DNA from: Acidobacteriota bacterium
GTDB lineage: Bacteria > Acidobacteriota > Holophagae > Holophagales > Holophagaceae
Length of the DNA stretch: 64,000 nt
Reading direction: 5' to 3'
NCBI GenBank assembly: GCA_014189895.1
Contig: BJFQ01000001.1
Coordinates: 62,001-126,000, forward strand
Part shown: positions 27,936 to 33,260 of the stretch, one piece after another
Layout of the letters: each line of letters begins with the position of its first letter
Position numbering within the stretch: the stretch's first letter is position 1
Program-made: the position numbers and the translations under genes
The notes under the pieces: model-generated
What the model was told of the DNA's origin: nothing
Database searches by the model: none
The model's input: the letters and a program-made list of their open reading frames with translations, nothing else

Positions 27936-28805
27936 TTAACCTTTTTTTGAAGGGCCTATTTTAAGCCCCTCGTAAAGACGATCGAGTTGTTCAGCATCAC
28001 TGTAATGAAAAATAAGTATGCCTTTTTTCCCCTGCCCTTTAATCTCAACCCGCGTCGACCACGATTGAGTAAGTTTTTCCGCTGCATCTTTTAGAAAAAC
28101 TGTGTTGGGATTCAGTTTCTTTTTCTTGAGGATTTTGGAGGATTGAAGTTGGTTGACGCGCACTTCGAGGGCACGGACACTCAGGCGCCGATCAATGACT
28201 TCTCGAGCCACCTGTTCCTGAAGCCGGGGGCTTTCTAGGCTCAGCAAAACCTTGGCGTGACCGATCGATAACTGTCGTTCTGAAATCATCGCTTGAATAG
28301 CTGACGGCAATTTGAGAAGTCGAAGTGTATTCGCAACTTGGGGTCTCGATTTACCCACACGATCAGCAACTTGTTCCTGCGTATATTTCAATAAATTGCC
28401 TAGATTCCAATAGGCTCGTCCTTCTTCAATGGGATTGAGTTCCTCTCGCTGAATATTTTCAACGAGAGCATACTCAAGCAGTTCATTATCGGGAACCTCT
28501 CGAACCACAATGGGGACATGAACGAGGCCTGCCTTTTTAGCAGCACGCCAACGACGTTCGCCAGCAATAATTTCGAATCGCTGACCTACCTTGCGCGTCA
28601 CGATGGGTTGGATAATTCCATGAGTCTTAATACTCGCGGAAAGCTCATCCAAAGCCTCATCATTGAAGGTAATACGAGGTTGAGCGCGATTAGGTGTTAA
28701 GAGATCAATAAGGACTTCTTGTGCATTCCCATCCCCCACGGAGGTGCGTTGTTGCATAAGAGCCTTGAGTCCTTTACCCAGGGCAGGTCGTTTAGAAACA
28801 TTCAT
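27936..28805 (-). CDS. parB: Chromosome-partitioning protein ParB
   Basis: The 289-residue protein starts with the ParB N-terminal peptide 'LGKGLKALM', which stimulates ParA ATPase. The CTPase/ParB domain follows with 'ITFNDEALDELSASIKTHGIIQPIV' in pieces, the GERRWRA box ('IIAGERRWRAAKKAG'), and 'ENIQREELNPIEE'. The helix-turn-helix region has 'YTQEQVADRVGKSRPQVANTLRLLKLP', and a C-terminal dimer domain closes the protein. ParB loads on parS sites and spreads as a CTP clamp to organise the origin region. It overlaps parA by ATGA. Candidate parS-like palindromes are found at 59227 and 60523, and half-sites in the parA leader. Confidence 0.96.
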   Translation of the reverse strand: MNVSKRPALGKGLKALMQQRTSVGDGNAQEVLIDLLTPNRAQPRITFNDEALDELSASIKTHGIIQPIVTRKVGQRFEIIAGERRWRAAKKAGLVHVPIVVREVPDNELLEYALVENIQREELNPIEEGRAYWNLGNLLKYTQEQVADRVGKSRPQVANTLRLLKLPSAIQAMISERQLSIGHAKVLLSLESPRLQEQVAREVIDRRLSVRALEVRVNQLQSSKILKKKKLNPNTVFLKDAAEKLTQSWSTRVEIKGQGKKGILIFHYSDAEQLDRLYEGLKIGPSKKG

Positions 28806-29590
28806 AACGTATCCTTAGCAAGTTCATTTTTTTTACGACGTAACCACTCTTTCGTGAAGTGGATGTAGGCTTGCGCCCCTTTAGATTTCAAATCATAAAA
28901 AGCAATGGGTTTTCCATGACTAGGAGCTTCGGCAAGACGAATATTTCTAGGGATTGACGTCTTAAAGACTTTGCCTGGGAAACTTTTGCGAACCTCGTTC
29001 GCAACCGCGGAGCCGAGGTTCGTTCTCTCTTCGGCCATCGTAAGCAGAATGCCGCCTAGCTGGAGGCTCGGATTCGATTGTTTTTGGACTGCATTGAGCG
29101 TATCCACTAATTCTACGAGTCCGTCCATCGCTAAAAATTCACAAGGCATGGGAACAATGAGTTCATCGGCCGCGGTGAAAGCATTCAGAGTCATGGTTCC
29201 CAAGGCAGGAGGCGAATCGATCACAATGTAGTCATAGGCTTCTTTAATCTGGCTCAACGCATTTTTTAAATTATAGAGTTGGGTCTCGTCCGTCAAATCA
29301 CTGAACTCCAAGCGCGAGAGATCTTTTCCTGCGGGAATGATTTGCAGGGTAGCGATCTCGGTGTTCAGAACTAAAACATCTGCCGGAGTTCCGGTTAACA
29401 GAGCATAAGCGCCGGCTTGATCATTCGGCTTCTCAAAACCTAGGCCTGTGGTCGAGTGCCCCTGTGGATCTAGATCAATCAACAAAACCATATGCTCGAG
29501 AAGGGCGAGTGAGGCAGCAAAATTAATAGAGGTGGTGGTTTTACCCACACCCCCCTTTTGATTTGCGATAACAACAATTCTTGCAGTCAC
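28802..29590 (-). CDS. parA: Chromosome-partitioning ATPase ParA/Soj
   Basis: A 262-residue Walker-type ATPase with the deviant Walker A 'KGGVGKTTTSINFA' (signature Lys11, P-loop Lys17), 'LLIDLDPQGHSTTG' (switch/Walker A' region), 'YIVIDSPPALGTMTLNA' (Walker B) and 'PCEFLAMDGL'. It forms ATP-dependent dimers on the nucleoid and moves ParB-parS complexes. Length and motif spacing match chromosomal Soj-type ParA without an N-terminal DNA-binding domain. The gene is first of the parA-parB pair. The 125-nt leader contains inverted half-sites similar to parS. Confidence 0.96.
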   Translation of the reverse strand: MTARIVVIANQKGGVGKTTTSINFAASLALLEHMVLLIDLDPQGHSTTGLGFEKPNDQAGAYALLTGTPADVLVLNTEIATLQIIPAGKDLSRLEFSDLTDETQLYNLKNALSQIKEAYDYIVIDSPPALGTMTLNAFTAADELIVPMPCEFLAMDGLVELVDTLNAVQKQSNPSLQLGGILLTMAEERTNLGSAVANEVRKSFPGKVFKTSIPRNIRLAEAPSHGKPIAFYDLKSKGAQAYIHFTKEWLRRKKNELAKDTL

Positions 29591-29621
29591 GTTTTAACAC
29601 CTTTCCCGATCATTCAAGAGT

Positions 29622-29652
29622 GTGGAACAAATTATATTTTACCTTGTTCCAC
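29622..29652. promoter_or_regulatory. Inverted repeat with parS-like half-sites in the parA leader
   Basis: GTGGAACAA (29622-29630) and TTGTTCCAC (29644-29652) are perfectly inverted around a 13-nt AT-rich centre, 32 nt before the parA start. The arms equal the two halves of the 16-mer found at 59227, but in swapped order. ACGCT/AGCGT at 29656-29666 forms another small inverted repeat. Possible uses are ParB autoregulation or a leader hairpin. Confidence 0.45.
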
Positions 29653-29715
29653 GGTACGCTTAGCGTGATTGCACACCTTTAAGGGCTGATTTAACAGGCC
29701 TTTGAGAGAACCAGC

Positions 29716-30495
29716 CTAGGAGAGCTCGATCTCAATAGCCTCTTCAACTCGGATAGGGCCAGACAGCCATAAGTTATCCCAGCGACCCGCCTGAATAGAA
29801 GATAGGGTTATGTGGACAGGTTCTTGAGCCGTATGAAATTTCCAAGAGGTACATTCGGTCATTTCAGTGAGCCATGCTCCGGCTACAGCACATCCTGTAC
29901 CGCAGCAGGCAGTTTCCCTTTCAACTCCTCTTTCGTAAGATCGAATTCGCGCTTCTCCGGGACGAATCATCTGAACGATATTAACATTCGTTCCATTCGG
30001 GAAAATTTTATGGTGTCGAAGAGGAGGTGCCCAATGATGCAAGTCGAAGGGGACAATGACGTCCATCAAAATTATTAATTGGGGATTCCCGATAAATCCA
30101 TATCGGTACGGATAAGGTAGGTCGAGAGACACATTAAATAAGCCCATACGATCATCTACTGAAAAATTTAGCGCGACTCCCTCGGTATCTTTTTTTAAAA
30201 AGACTTGTTCTTGGTTAGAACAACAAGACACCACTTCTGCGTGAGGAATCTGAAGGAGGGCGAGCGCGGCGCGCGTTCCATTCGAACAAAAGGTCTCAGC
30301 TCCATCGGTATCCCAATGGGTCATTACCCAAGACTGGCCGGGGCGGTAAGGGCTTAAGAGAAAGAAACCATCCACTTGTGCGGGGTGTTCTTTAAGAGCC
30401 TGGGCCCAGCGAGGCCCATCTTTCAATTGAAAGTCCTCCGACTCAATTGCATAGGCGAACCGATTGCCGCTACCGGATGCCACATGAAGTTTCAT
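29716..30495 (-). CDS. dapF: Diaminopimelate epimerase DapF
   Basis: The 259-residue protein converts LL- to meso-diaminopimelate for lysine and peptidoglycan synthesis. Two active-site cysteines are visible: Cys70 in 'ETFCSNGTRAAL' and Cys198 in 'ERETACCGTGCAVAG'. The N-terminal 'ASGSGNRFAYA' stands for the usual GLGNDF motif and is somewhat diverged. 'YRYGFIGNPQLIIL' (substrate Asn) and 'FPNGTNVNIVQ' match family blocks. The protein is slightly shorter than the E. coli enzyme. The ATG lies 20 nt downstream of the FtsB-like gene, so it probably shares a transcript with enolase and the divisome gene. The divergent N-terminal motif lowers certainty a little. Confidence 0.88.
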   Translation of the reverse strand: MKLHVASGSGNRFAYAIESEDFQLKDGPRWAQALKEHPAQVDGFFLLSPYRPGQSWVMTHWDTDGAETFCSNGTRAALALLQIPHAEVVSCCSNQEQVFLKKDTEGVALNFSVDDRMGLFNVSLDLPYPYRYGFIGNPQLIILMDVIVPFDLHHWAPPLRHHKIFPNGTNVNIVQMIRPGEARIRSYERGVERETACCGTGCAVAGAWLTEMTECTSWKFHTAQEPVHITLSSIQAGRWDNLWLSGPIRVEEAIEIELS

Positions 30496-30515
30496 ATGAA
30501 AAATGCTCGCGCGTT

Positions 30516-30812
30516 CTATTTCTGCTTAGGTTCTTGGAAGACATACACGCGTTCATTGGGCATCTGCATTCCGCGTTGTCGAGCCATGATTTCATAGATC
30601 AATTCATTTTTTCCTTTGATTTGCTCGAGCGAAGATTTCAAGAGGCCATTTTCACTTCGAAGCTTTTCGAGTCGCTGTTCATATTGATTAAGTTGCTTTC
30701 GGCTTCGTTGTAAGTTGTGGAACTCGGGGCGCACAAAAACAACCACTGCGGTGACGGCAAGCGAGAGTAACCATGCCCACATCAAACTGTCCTTGCGATT
30801 AAAGATACCCAT
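30516..30812 (-). CDS. FtsB/DivIC-like septum formation protein
   Basis: A 98-residue protein with a short cytoplasmic start, one membrane segment ('MWAWLLSLAVTAVVVFV', about 11-27) and a Leu-zipper coiled coil (about 33-70, 'LNQYEQRLEKLRSENGLLKSSLEQI'-like in parts), then a short C-terminal tail ending 'VYVFQEPKQK'. Size, topology and position directly after enolase match FtsB/DivIC, which bridges FtsL and FtsQ in the divisome. Sequence conservation in this family is low, so position carries much weight. It begins 4 nt after the enolase stop, implying translational coupling. Confidence 0.75.
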   Translation of the reverse strand: MGIFNRKDSLMWAWLLSLAVTAVVVFVRPEFHNLQRSRKQLNQYEQRLEKLRSENGLLKSSLEQIKGKNELIYEIMARQRGMQMPNERVYVFQEPKQK

Positions 30813-30816
30813 AAAT

Positions 30817-32097
30817 CTACCTTACCTTAAAGTTGAGGGCCTCTGCGCCAGCGTAGCGCGCCTGAGAGCCCAGCTCTCTCTCTATCTGTATCAGCCGATT
30901 ATATTTAGCCACCCGATCAGTTCTGGCTGGCGCCCCTGTCTTAATTTGTTTCGCCGAAGAGGCGATCGCCAAATCCGCAATAAAAGTATCCTCGCTCTCG
31001 CCGCTCCGATGGCTGATAATGCAGCGATAACCCGCCTGATGAGCTATGTCAATGGCGTGGAAGGTTTCTGTCACCGTCCCGATTTGATTAAGTTTAACCA
31101 ACAGCGCATTAGCTATATGATCGGAAATTCCTTGTTTCAAAATAGCGGGGTTGGTCACAAAAACATCGTCACCCACGAGTTGGATCTTATCGCCAAGTGC
31201 GGCGGTTAGTTGTTGCCACCCTGCATAGTCATCTTCGGCCATTCCATCCTCAATACTGATAATAGGAAATTGCCGGATGAGTGATTCGTAGTAACTTAAT
31301 AAGGTTTCTGAGGTCCACGATTTTCGATCTAAATGATACTGGCCGTCTCGGTAAAACTCTGAGGCGGCACAATCAAGTGCAAGGTAAACATCTTGACCTA
31401 ACCGAAGTCCTGAATGCTCAATGGCTTCGGCGATACAGTGCAAGGCGGCTTCGTTACTTTCCAGATGCGGTGCAAAGCCTCCCTCATCACCGACCCCTGT
31501 AGCAAGTTTCTTAGTTTTGAGTACCTTTTTAAGATTTTGGTAAATTTCCGCGCCCCAGCGAACCGCCTCATGAAAACTAGGCGCTGCGACGGGGACCACC
31601 ATAAATTCTTGAATATCGACGTTGGTATCTGCATGAGCACCACCGTTTAAAATATTCATCATGGGAACAGGCAAATAGAGAGAATCGGTCGATCTCAATT
31701 GACGATAGAGGGGAGTCTTTAAAGACCGGGCTGCCGCCACGGTAGTTGCCATGGAAACTCCCAAAATAGCATTGGCTCCTAAGTGAGATTTATTGTGCGT
31801 TCCATCCAGATCAATCATTCGTTCATCAATCGCTTTTTGATCGAAAGGGCTCCAGTTCTTTAGGTGAGGGGCAAGGAGGGTTTCCACTGCGTTAACAGCT
31901 TTCAAGACTCCCTTACCGCCGTATCGTTTGGTGTCTTGATCGCGATGTTCGAGTGCTTCTTTTGAACCGGTGGAAGCTCCCGAGGGAACGATGGCACTTC
32001 CAAAATGTCCATCCGATAGAAATACCGTCACTTGAAGCGTGGGATTTCCCCGACTATCTAAAACTTCGAGGGCTTGAATATTTTCAATAAGGGTCAT
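30817..32097 (-). CDS. eno: Enolase
   Basis: The 426-residue glycolytic enzyme interconverts 2-phosphoglycerate and phosphoenolpyruvate. Family blocks are present throughout: 'ALEVLDSRGNPTLQV', 'GSAIVPSGASTGSKEALEHRD', 'NAILGVSMATT', 'LPVPMMNILNGGAHADTNVDIQEFMV' (in pieces), 'GVGDEGGFAPHLESN', metal Asp in 'LALDCAASEFY', 'SIEDGMAEDD', 'LVGDDVFVTN', and 'LVKLNQIGTVTET' with the catalytic Lys, then 'CIISHRSGESEDTFIADLA' split. Length is normal. It lies upstream of an FtsB-like gene and downstream of two tandem terminators of the TrpC-like gene, so it must have its own promoter in the short gap. Confidence 0.97.
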   Translation of the reverse strand: MTLIENIQALEVLDSRGNPTLQVTVFLSDGHFGSAIVPSGASTGSKEALEHRDQDTKRYGGKGVLKAVNAVETLLAPHLKNWSPFDQKAIDERMIDLDGTHNKSHLGANAILGVSMATTVAAARSLKTPLYRQLRSTDSLYLPVPMMNILNGGAHADTNVDIQEFMVVPVAAPSFHEAVRWGAEIYQNLKKVLKTKKLATGVGDEGGFAPHLESNEAALHCIAEAIEHSGLRLGQDVYLALDCAASEFYRDGQYHLDRKSWTSETLLSYYESLIRQFPIISIEDGMAEDDYAGWQQLTAALGDKIQLVGDDVFVTNPAILKQGISDHIANALLVKLNQIGTVTETFHAIDIAHQAGYRCIISHRSGESEDTFIADLAIASSAKQIKTGAPARTDRVAKYNRLIQIERELGSQARYAGAEALNFKVR

Positions 32098-32138
32098 GTG
32101 ATTAACTTTAGGTTGGATTATCGTCTTTAGAAAGGAAA

Positions 32139-32156
32139 ACCCCCGTTTCCGGGGGT
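32139..32156 (-). terminator. Second hairpin terminator downstream of the TrpC-like gene
   Basis: ACCCCC/GGGGGT arms (32139-32144 and 32151-32156) form a GC-rich stem. On the minus strand it is followed by TTTTCCTTT. It acts as a backup to the hairpin at 32173-32187. Confidence 0.75.
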
Positions 32157-32172
32157 CTTCTTAAAAAGAAAA

Positions 32173-32187
32173 GCCCCTTTCAGGGCT
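32173..32187 (-). terminator. Rho-independent terminator of the TrpC-like gene
   Basis: On the minus strand, AGCCC and GGGCT arms enclose a short A/G-rich loop directly after the stop codon, followed by TTTTCTTTTTAA. It closes the gene at 32193-33260. Confidence 0.75.
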
Positions 32188-32192
32188 GCGAT

Positions 32193-32294
32193 TTAACGCT
32201 TTTTCTTTTTGGTGGCTTTTTTAGCCGCTTTTTTCTTGGTGGCTTTTTTAGCTACTTTTTTAGTAGCTTTTTTAGCCGCTTTTTTCTTGGCCAT
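32193..32294 (-). CDS. Possible separate 33-residue histone-like peptide (internal start)
   Basis: Within the TrpC-like frame, the ATG at 32294 begins MAKKKAAKKATKK and continues to the shared stop. The peptide has 33 residues, almost only Lys, Ala and Thr, with one Arg at the end. AAGGAG lies 6 nt before this ATG, which is as good a ribosome-binding site as any in the window. The product would resemble the C-terminal repeats of Hc1/AlgP-like histone-H1 homologues and could compact DNA or bind RNA. There is no stop between the TrpC-like part and this start, so fusion and free peptide may both be made. Confidence 0.5.
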   Translation of the reverse strand: MAKKKAAKKATKKVAKKATKKKAAKKATKKKKR

Positions 32295-33260
32295 GATTGG
32301 CTCCTTTTTGCCCTTGCGGGCTGTTGTGGAAGGGGTGCGGTGAGCCGGTGTTCCAGGCTTTCTGGACCCGGTATCTTTCCGCGGGGAAGAAATTTTTTCT
32401 TTGGCTACTTTGGTGGCAGCAGGTGCAACCTTGGTGGCCACTGGGGTGACGACGGGCGTTGGGGCCGCTTTCACCTTGGGAATTTTTTTAACGGGGGGTT
32501 CTTCGCCTTTTAATAATGAGGCTAAGCGCTTGCCGGGATAAAAATCATCCAAGAGCGCGTCGCCAATAATGACACCATGAACTCCAAGAGCGTGGAGATG
32601 CTTCACTTGGACTATGCGATTAATACCTGCCTCAAACATAATCAATGAATCTTTAGGAATCTTCTTAATGAGCGTAATGGACTTATCGTAGTTGGGATTC
32701 CAGTTTTCTAAATTGCGTCCTACGATACAAAAGATCTGAGCGCCGACTTCGATTGAGCGCTTAATGTCTTCGTCATTGGTCACTTCAAAGACAACATCTA
32801 AACCCTTAGCAACGGCCAACTTATGTAAATCCACTAATTTAGATTGGGCTAACAGGGCCGGCATTAAGAAGATGGCGTCTGCCCCTAGAATCTTACTTTC
32901 TTCAACTTGGTATTCCTCAAAAATAAATTCGCGACGCAGCAGAGGAACCTTCACTTGGGAGCGGGTTTCCGATAGACCTTTATCATCACCAAAATAAAGG
33001 AACTTATCCGTAGCGATTGAAAGGGCTTTGGCACCATTTTCTATGAGGCTTTTTGCATGTGTCGAAGCTTTAAAATTAGAACGCGTCTTTCCTAAGCCCG
33101 GGCTTCCGCCTGCAACTTCAGCGATGATCGTAATCGTCCCTTGGCTTAATTCTTCTTTCAAAGAATGATGACCTCGGTAATTTCCTTTGGCAGCGACCGA
33201 ACCTCGTTGCTTCTTGATTTCTATATCAAGAGCTTTAAAAATTGCAACGCGCTTTAACAT
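32193..33260 (-). CDS. TrpC-like TIM-barrel protein fused to a histone-H1-like tail
   Basis: Residues 1-252 align along their whole length with indole-3-glycerol-phosphate synthase ('IIAEV.GGSP', 'YFGDD', 'PLLRREFIFEEYQV', 'GADAIFL', 'VVFEVTNDED', 'GRNLENW', 'FEAGI', 'VIIGDALL'). Several catalytic positions differ from the family: the Lys after IAE(x) is Ala50, the second catalytic Lys is Arg110, the substrate Asn is Gly181 and the Ser after Glu210 is Ala211. Glu48, Glu159 and Glu210 remain. Normal activity is therefore doubtful. Residues about 253-322 are a Pro/Ala/Thr/Lys linker, and 323-355 a basic tail of KKAAKKATKK-type repeats as in bacterial histone-H1-like proteins. Nucleic-acid binding is inferred. 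No other trp gene is nearby. An internal start at Met323 has its own ribosome-binding site. Confidence 0.8.
   Translation of the reverse strand: MLKRVAIFKALDIEIKKQRGSVAAKGNYRGHHSLKEELSQGTITIIAEVAGGSPGLGKTRSNFKASTHAKSLIENGAKALSIATDKFLYFGDDKGLSETRSQVKVPLLRREFIFEEYQVEESKILGADAIFLMPALLAQSKLVDLHKLAVAKGLDVVFEVTNDEDIKRSIEVGAQIFCIVGRNLENWNPNYDKSITLIKKIPKDSLIMFEAGINRIVQVKHLHALGVHGVIIGDALLDDFYPGKRLASLLKGEEPPVKKIPKVKAAPTPVVTPVATKVAPAATKVAKEKISSPRKDTGSRKPGTPAHRTPSTTARKGKKEPIMAKKKAAKKATKKVAKKATKKKAAKKATKKKKR
32301..32306 (-). promoter_or_regulatory. Internal Shine-Dalgarno site in the TrpC-like gene
   Basis: AAGGAG on the minus strand, 6 nt before the ATG at 32294. It encodes part of 'KKEP' in the fusion. 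The spacing is optimal for initiation. Confidence 0.6.

Follow-up and report, generated by a model that had tools for sequence, protein, structure and literature searches.

We propose that a 355-amino-acid open reading frame (ORF), located on the minus strand of a 64,000-nucleotide stretch of contig BJFQ01000001.1 (hereafter the window), carries in its 3' part a second gene in the same frame. The source is a member of the Holophagaceae (Acidobacteriota) with a small genome of 1.17 Mb, whose relatives include Geothrix. The long frame encodes a fusion of a barrel resembling indole-3-glycerol phosphate synthase (IGPS, TrpC), a linker and a lysine-rich tail, and the nested gene, with its own Shine-Dalgarno (SD) sequence and start codon, would yield the tail as a free, H1/HC2-like polycation beside the barrel-tail fusion. 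We give this reading a probability of about 0.88, its expression being deduced from the conservation pattern described below. A first-pass annotation of this DNA had raised the idea that an internal start could release the tail as a separate protein, which the preservation of SD and start codon throughout the family supports. The features concerned are the following:

32193..33260, minus strand: fusion ORF of 355 amino acids, with IGPS-like barrel, linker and lysine-rich tail (PF00218, 1.7e-46)
32505..33260, minus strand: IGPS-like (TrpC-like) TIM barrel without the two catalytic lysines (profile, PDB sequence matches, structural model, Foldseek and residue alignment)
32295..32504, minus strand: low-complexity linker of ~70 residues, predicted to be disordered (pLDDT < 50 from residue 260; family alignment)
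32310..32321, minus strand: hairpin GCCC-GCAA-GGGC with a GNRA-type loop, 3 nt 5' of the SD; compensatory changes preserve it among relatives
32301..32306, minus strand: SD AAGGAG (extended form AAAGGAG, 32301-32307), coinciding with Lys319-Glu320 of the fusion, invariant in 57/57
32300-32295, minus strand: spacer CCAATC between the SD and the internal ATG
32292..32294, minus strand: internal start codon ATG, Met323 of the fusion, in frame with the long ORF
32193..32294, minus strand: nested in-frame gene for a 33-residue polycation, MAKKKAAKKATKKVAKKATKKKAAKKATKKKKR, net charge +19
32290..32301, minus strand: possible small start-codon hairpin GCCA-ATCA-TGGC, tentative, from single-strand folding
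32172..32187, minus strand: terminator-like hairpin and T run directly after the stop codon

The fusion is present in nearly all Holophagaceae genomes having the complete locus, which provided 57 distinct sequence contexts from 11 genera for the study of conservation. AAGGAG and the 6-nt length of the spacer are invariant in all of them, 56 have ATG and one has GTG as the internal start codon, and the residues flanking the site vary (P, F, S, L or T after the Glu; A, E or D after the Met). SD-like sequences inside genes could slow ribosomes, and this one sits at a domain border, so that it might be read as a programmed elongation pause between barrel and tail, the latter existing in the fusion only. 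However, a pause would work without a start context and without an ATG or GTG held exactly 6 nt away, and here the start codon is as well conserved as the SD, its sole variant is also a start, and the neighbouring codons change; we hold a pause to be highly improbable.

The comparison with synonymous alternatives, which the first-pass annotation had named as a check, came out in favor of the internal start. In a whole-gene codon alignment of 26 sequences, 84 columns have an unchanging amino acid with degenerate codons, and only two of them are also invariant in codon, those of K319 (AAG) and E320 (GAG); besides these, the third base is constant at the internal start, Trp187 and the primary start, and at no other column. 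Since only AAG and GAG among the 84 never swap codon, the constraint falls on the nucleotides and not on the protein, and, judged from these codons, selection at the site is at the nucleotide level and has the form of a ribosome-binding site. With one genome per genus and each gene's own codon use, the chance of finding AAG-GAG throughout is 2.6e-6 under a star-tree approximation, which exaggerates independence; measuring the two codons against the remaining 82 invariant columns, which have the same phylogeny, does without that assumption. GAG is otherwise a rare choice for Glu in the window gene. The same data bear on the idea that the conserved border residues, A-[RQ]-K-G-x-K-E-x-x-M, are a motif of the protein itself, such as a processing site from which the tail is freed by proteolysis. 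A constraint on protein would permit AAA and GAA, but 0/57 have them, although every other conserved degenerate position swaps codons, and the codon of Gly317 differs only in the two sequences with a changed base in the upstream pairing, all of which makes proteolytic release scarcely credible.

Within the window itself, the predicted arrangement of AAGGAG 6 nt before an in-frame ATG at the first residue of the basic tail was found as described, on the minus strand. The 3' end of the 16S rRNA of the same genome (GGATCACCTCCTTTCT) pairs with AAAGGAG over 7 nt. When the internal in-frame ATGs of long ORFs in the window were scored, 0/96 reached a 6-nt anti-SD match, the site discussed here having been found separately from these 96, and only about one in 52 gene starts has an anti-SD match longer than that of the internal site, so that the earlier description of the site as being as strong as the best starts of the window holds. 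No other RGGA-N4-10-RTG site was found in the window gene. The primary start of the fusion gene has a weak SD or none in the window genus, and mostly short SDs in other genera; we therefore expect the internal start to be the stronger of the two. The pattern alone is nothing exceptional: the 1.17-Mb genome has 64 instances of AAGGAG-N5-8-ATG, compared with about 25 in the reversed control, which makes the evidence from a single genome moderate. These counts leave room for a coincidence in one genome, but the invariance over 11 genera refutes it, and with it the probability of a chance occurrence becomes practically negligible; in sequence terms, it is the conservation across relatives that lifts the internal site above chance.

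A short separate mRNA, arising from a promoter or processing site within the barrel or linker, could also supply the tail. This possibility employs the same start and thus overlaps with the nested gene proposed here, the site being usable on either mRNA, and the adjoining upstream hairpin might protect a processed 5' end. On the other hand, one weak promoter-like match was found on this strand, near the 5' end of the gene, within an overall number close to that expected by chance, and the conserved upstream columns are C-rich and lack a conserved -10-like box. An internal sigma-70 promoter, for which no match rose above chance, was accordingly discarded as a candidate, and we consider a separate mRNA unlikely, though not far-fetched.

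The hairpin itself is seen in nearly all sequences as GCCC-NNNN-GGGC three bases 5' of the SD, with loops that are mostly of the GNRA type (GCAA, GTAA, GAAA, GGAA, GCGA) and AAAA in Geothrix. Two divergent sequences have changes on both sides of the stem (CCCT-CTCA-AGGG in L023, CCU/GGG in L028). Overall, 98.8% of the hairpin cells are paired, both-side changes occur in two pairs, and 0/500 shuffles attain such pairing. Because the independent events number only two or three, the support from conservation is good but not overwhelming. Possible roles of the hairpin are to keep sequence farther upstream away from the SD, to label or shield a 5' end, or to act as a control site. The start codon can also be placed in a GCCA/TGGC hairpin, which we treat as no more than tentative, because other genera use other registers (GTTCC/GGAAC, GTCC/GGAC). 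An Rfam scan of the region returned two chance-level matches only, far below the gathering scores.

Three observations weigh against the nested gene. In single-strand folding, the SD and the ATG are only partly unpaired (approximately 0.2-0.6 unpaired for the SD), which suggests that internal initiation may depend on upstream ribosomes. The fusion ORF stays open in the relatives as well, so the fusion itself must matter. Finally, one sequence of genus g9 (L029, genome G010) has lost both the SD and the internal start and kept a K-containing tail. Retention of the tail with loss of the site was what the first-pass annotation had regarded as speaking against its proposal; however, the last 96 residues of L029, the sole relative without the site, have a net charge of only +10 and are barely basic, and the case is thus not a clean one. 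Another sequence of the same genus (L023, genome G018) has kept the SD, starts with GTG and has a tail of net charge +31. The tail repeats of genus g9 now contain proline and acidic residues, as in KADPTPVPDSDPTPAKTPAKK of L029.

Under the nested-gene reading, a single mRNA would carry two ribosome-binding sites. The ordinary weak site at the beginning of the ORF would give the barrel-linker-tail fusion, and the strong conserved internal site (hairpin, AAGGAG, 6 nt, ATG) would give the tail alone, with a C-terminus common to both. The free tail would probably be the major product, since the primary start is weaker than the internal SD. Its function may be non-specific binding to DNA or some other polyanion, to which the fusion may in turn tether the non-catalytic barrel. 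Ribosome initiation at the internal ATG, the amounts of the products and the function of the peptide are what we infer from these features. A wider proposal, about which we are more doubtful than confident, is that the nested start in a pseudo-TrpC gene provides the only H1-like chromatin protein of the Holophagaceae, that the hairpin beside the SD couples or regulates translation, possibly through the polycation itself, and that a single mRNA would yield barrel and free protein in a fixed proportion.

The tail of the window carries a net charge of +19 in 33 residues, which is compatible with DNA binding, and those of the relatives range from +27 to +76, some tails being clipped by contig ends. 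In the window genus the tail has just 29-33 residues, yet the internal site is intact. The 33-residue tail of the window matches neither PF07382 nor any other family; at the same locus, G006 (55.1 bits) and G011 (42.1 bits) exceed the PF07382 cut-off of 40 and Geothrix reaches 35-39, in scores that are to be read with the ease with which low-complexity families match. A search of the Holophagaceae for H1-like proteins, with the PF07382 profile and a Geothrix tail as queries, found lysine-rich ORFs of this kind almost only at the locus adjacent to eno, even where contig breaks remove the barrel. No stand-alone H1-like gene was found in the searched genomes, in which a few short K-rich matches, for instance in G011, were not followed up. 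As candidates for a stand-alone gene in whose presence the internal start would be superfluous, the remaining weak matches were rejected, being mostly short contig ends or stretches of 21-22% identity in other ORFs.

The barrel matches PF00218 with 158.9 bits (cut-off 27; E-value 1.7e-46). AlphaFold2, run on a 14-sequence alignment (mean pLDDT 60), predicts a barrel as the core and a disordered chain from residue 260 onwards, and Foldseek places the barrel model among IGPS structures with E-values of about 1e-18, the sequence matches in the PDB being also to IGPS. In sequence and fold the barrel thus resembles TrpC, but it differs in its catalytic residues, which in IGPS we take to be the Lys of AEVK, the Lys of LRKDF and the Asn of GINxR. 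Aligned to the Campylobacter jejuni IGPS (6bma), the barrel of the window reads AEVA, LRREF and CIVGR at these places, and in all relatives aligned the catalytic lysines are replaced (by A, S or T and by R, Q or H), as is the active-site Asn. Scores also lie far below the NCBIfam cut-offs for TrpC. Lacking the catalytic lysines, the barrel is unlikely to be an active TrpC. It appears as a family-wide paralogue in the Holophagaceae, probably a pseudo-enzyme, with conserved motifs of its own (FKALDxEIKKQ+G and FYPGKRL). In most relatives a further IGPS match, a more distant one, lies elsewhere in the genome; the window genome (G000) and genus g1, with genomes of 0.9-1.2 Mb, have one IGPS-like match only, and this small-genome genus may be without a functional TrpC.

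Internal starts of this class are known. In type III secretion systems, the C-terminal domain of SctQ/HrcQ is additionally made on its own from an in-frame internal ATG preceded by an SD-like sequence, and has the same C-terminus as the full-length protein (PMC8553256), and Cas11 is made from inside cas8 or cas10 as an internally initiated C-terminal small protein of a large ORF, used in excess (PMC11899642). The Holophagaceae gene shares with the former the in-frame start with an SD and the C-terminus common to both predicted products, although SctQ-C is a structural subunit, whereas the product proposed here would be a polycation rich in lysine, for which disorder is predicted, and the SD has a longer match (7 nt), is kept throughout a bacterial family and adjoins a hairpin. 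With Cas11 it would have in common a large ORF plus an internal C-terminal small protein, but Cas11 is a CRISPR subunit and the proteins are unrelated. Among H1-like proteins, AlgP is known from Pseudomonas (PMC9239181). The tails resemble the H1/HC2-like proteins (PF07382, NF038053; AlgP) in their K-A-A-P-K-K repeats, and tails of relatives match PF07382, two genomes doing so above the cut-off. To our knowledge, bacterial H1/HC2-like proteins are all encoded by their own genes, unlike the proposed tail gene of the Holophagaceae, which is nested in frame in a TrpC-like gene. No description of this nested start was found in the open-access literature, and a search for Geothrix together with histone yielded nothing relevant; SctQ-C and Cas11 exemplify a known class of mechanism, and the instance in the Holophagaceae appears to be undescribed.

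If correct, this would be a clean, family-wide case of a same-frame gene within a gene in bacteria, detected from DNA conservation alone, and ORF-based annotation of the whole family would miss an H1-like protein as an entry of its own. The codon-invariance test, with two of 84 columns, offers a simple route to such starts elsewhere. The case further draws attention to a barrel of the TrpC type that no longer has its catalytic residues and is now joined to a histone-like tail.

As for the surroundings, the fusion lies directly upstream of eno, and this synteny is constant in the relatives. An origin outside the family was considered and rejected: no barrel-tail fusion was seen upstream of eno in same-class relatives outside the family, and in genus g13 this position holds an unrelated R/S-rich protein. 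One metagenome-assembled genome (L030, at about 1190 on the reverse strand; L086 has the same sequence) shows a barrel disrupted by a deletion with frameshift, which could be an assembly error, next to an intact SD, start and tail. The gene order fusion, eno, an ftsB-like gene, dapF and parA (28802-33260 of the window, minus strand) is kept across the family.
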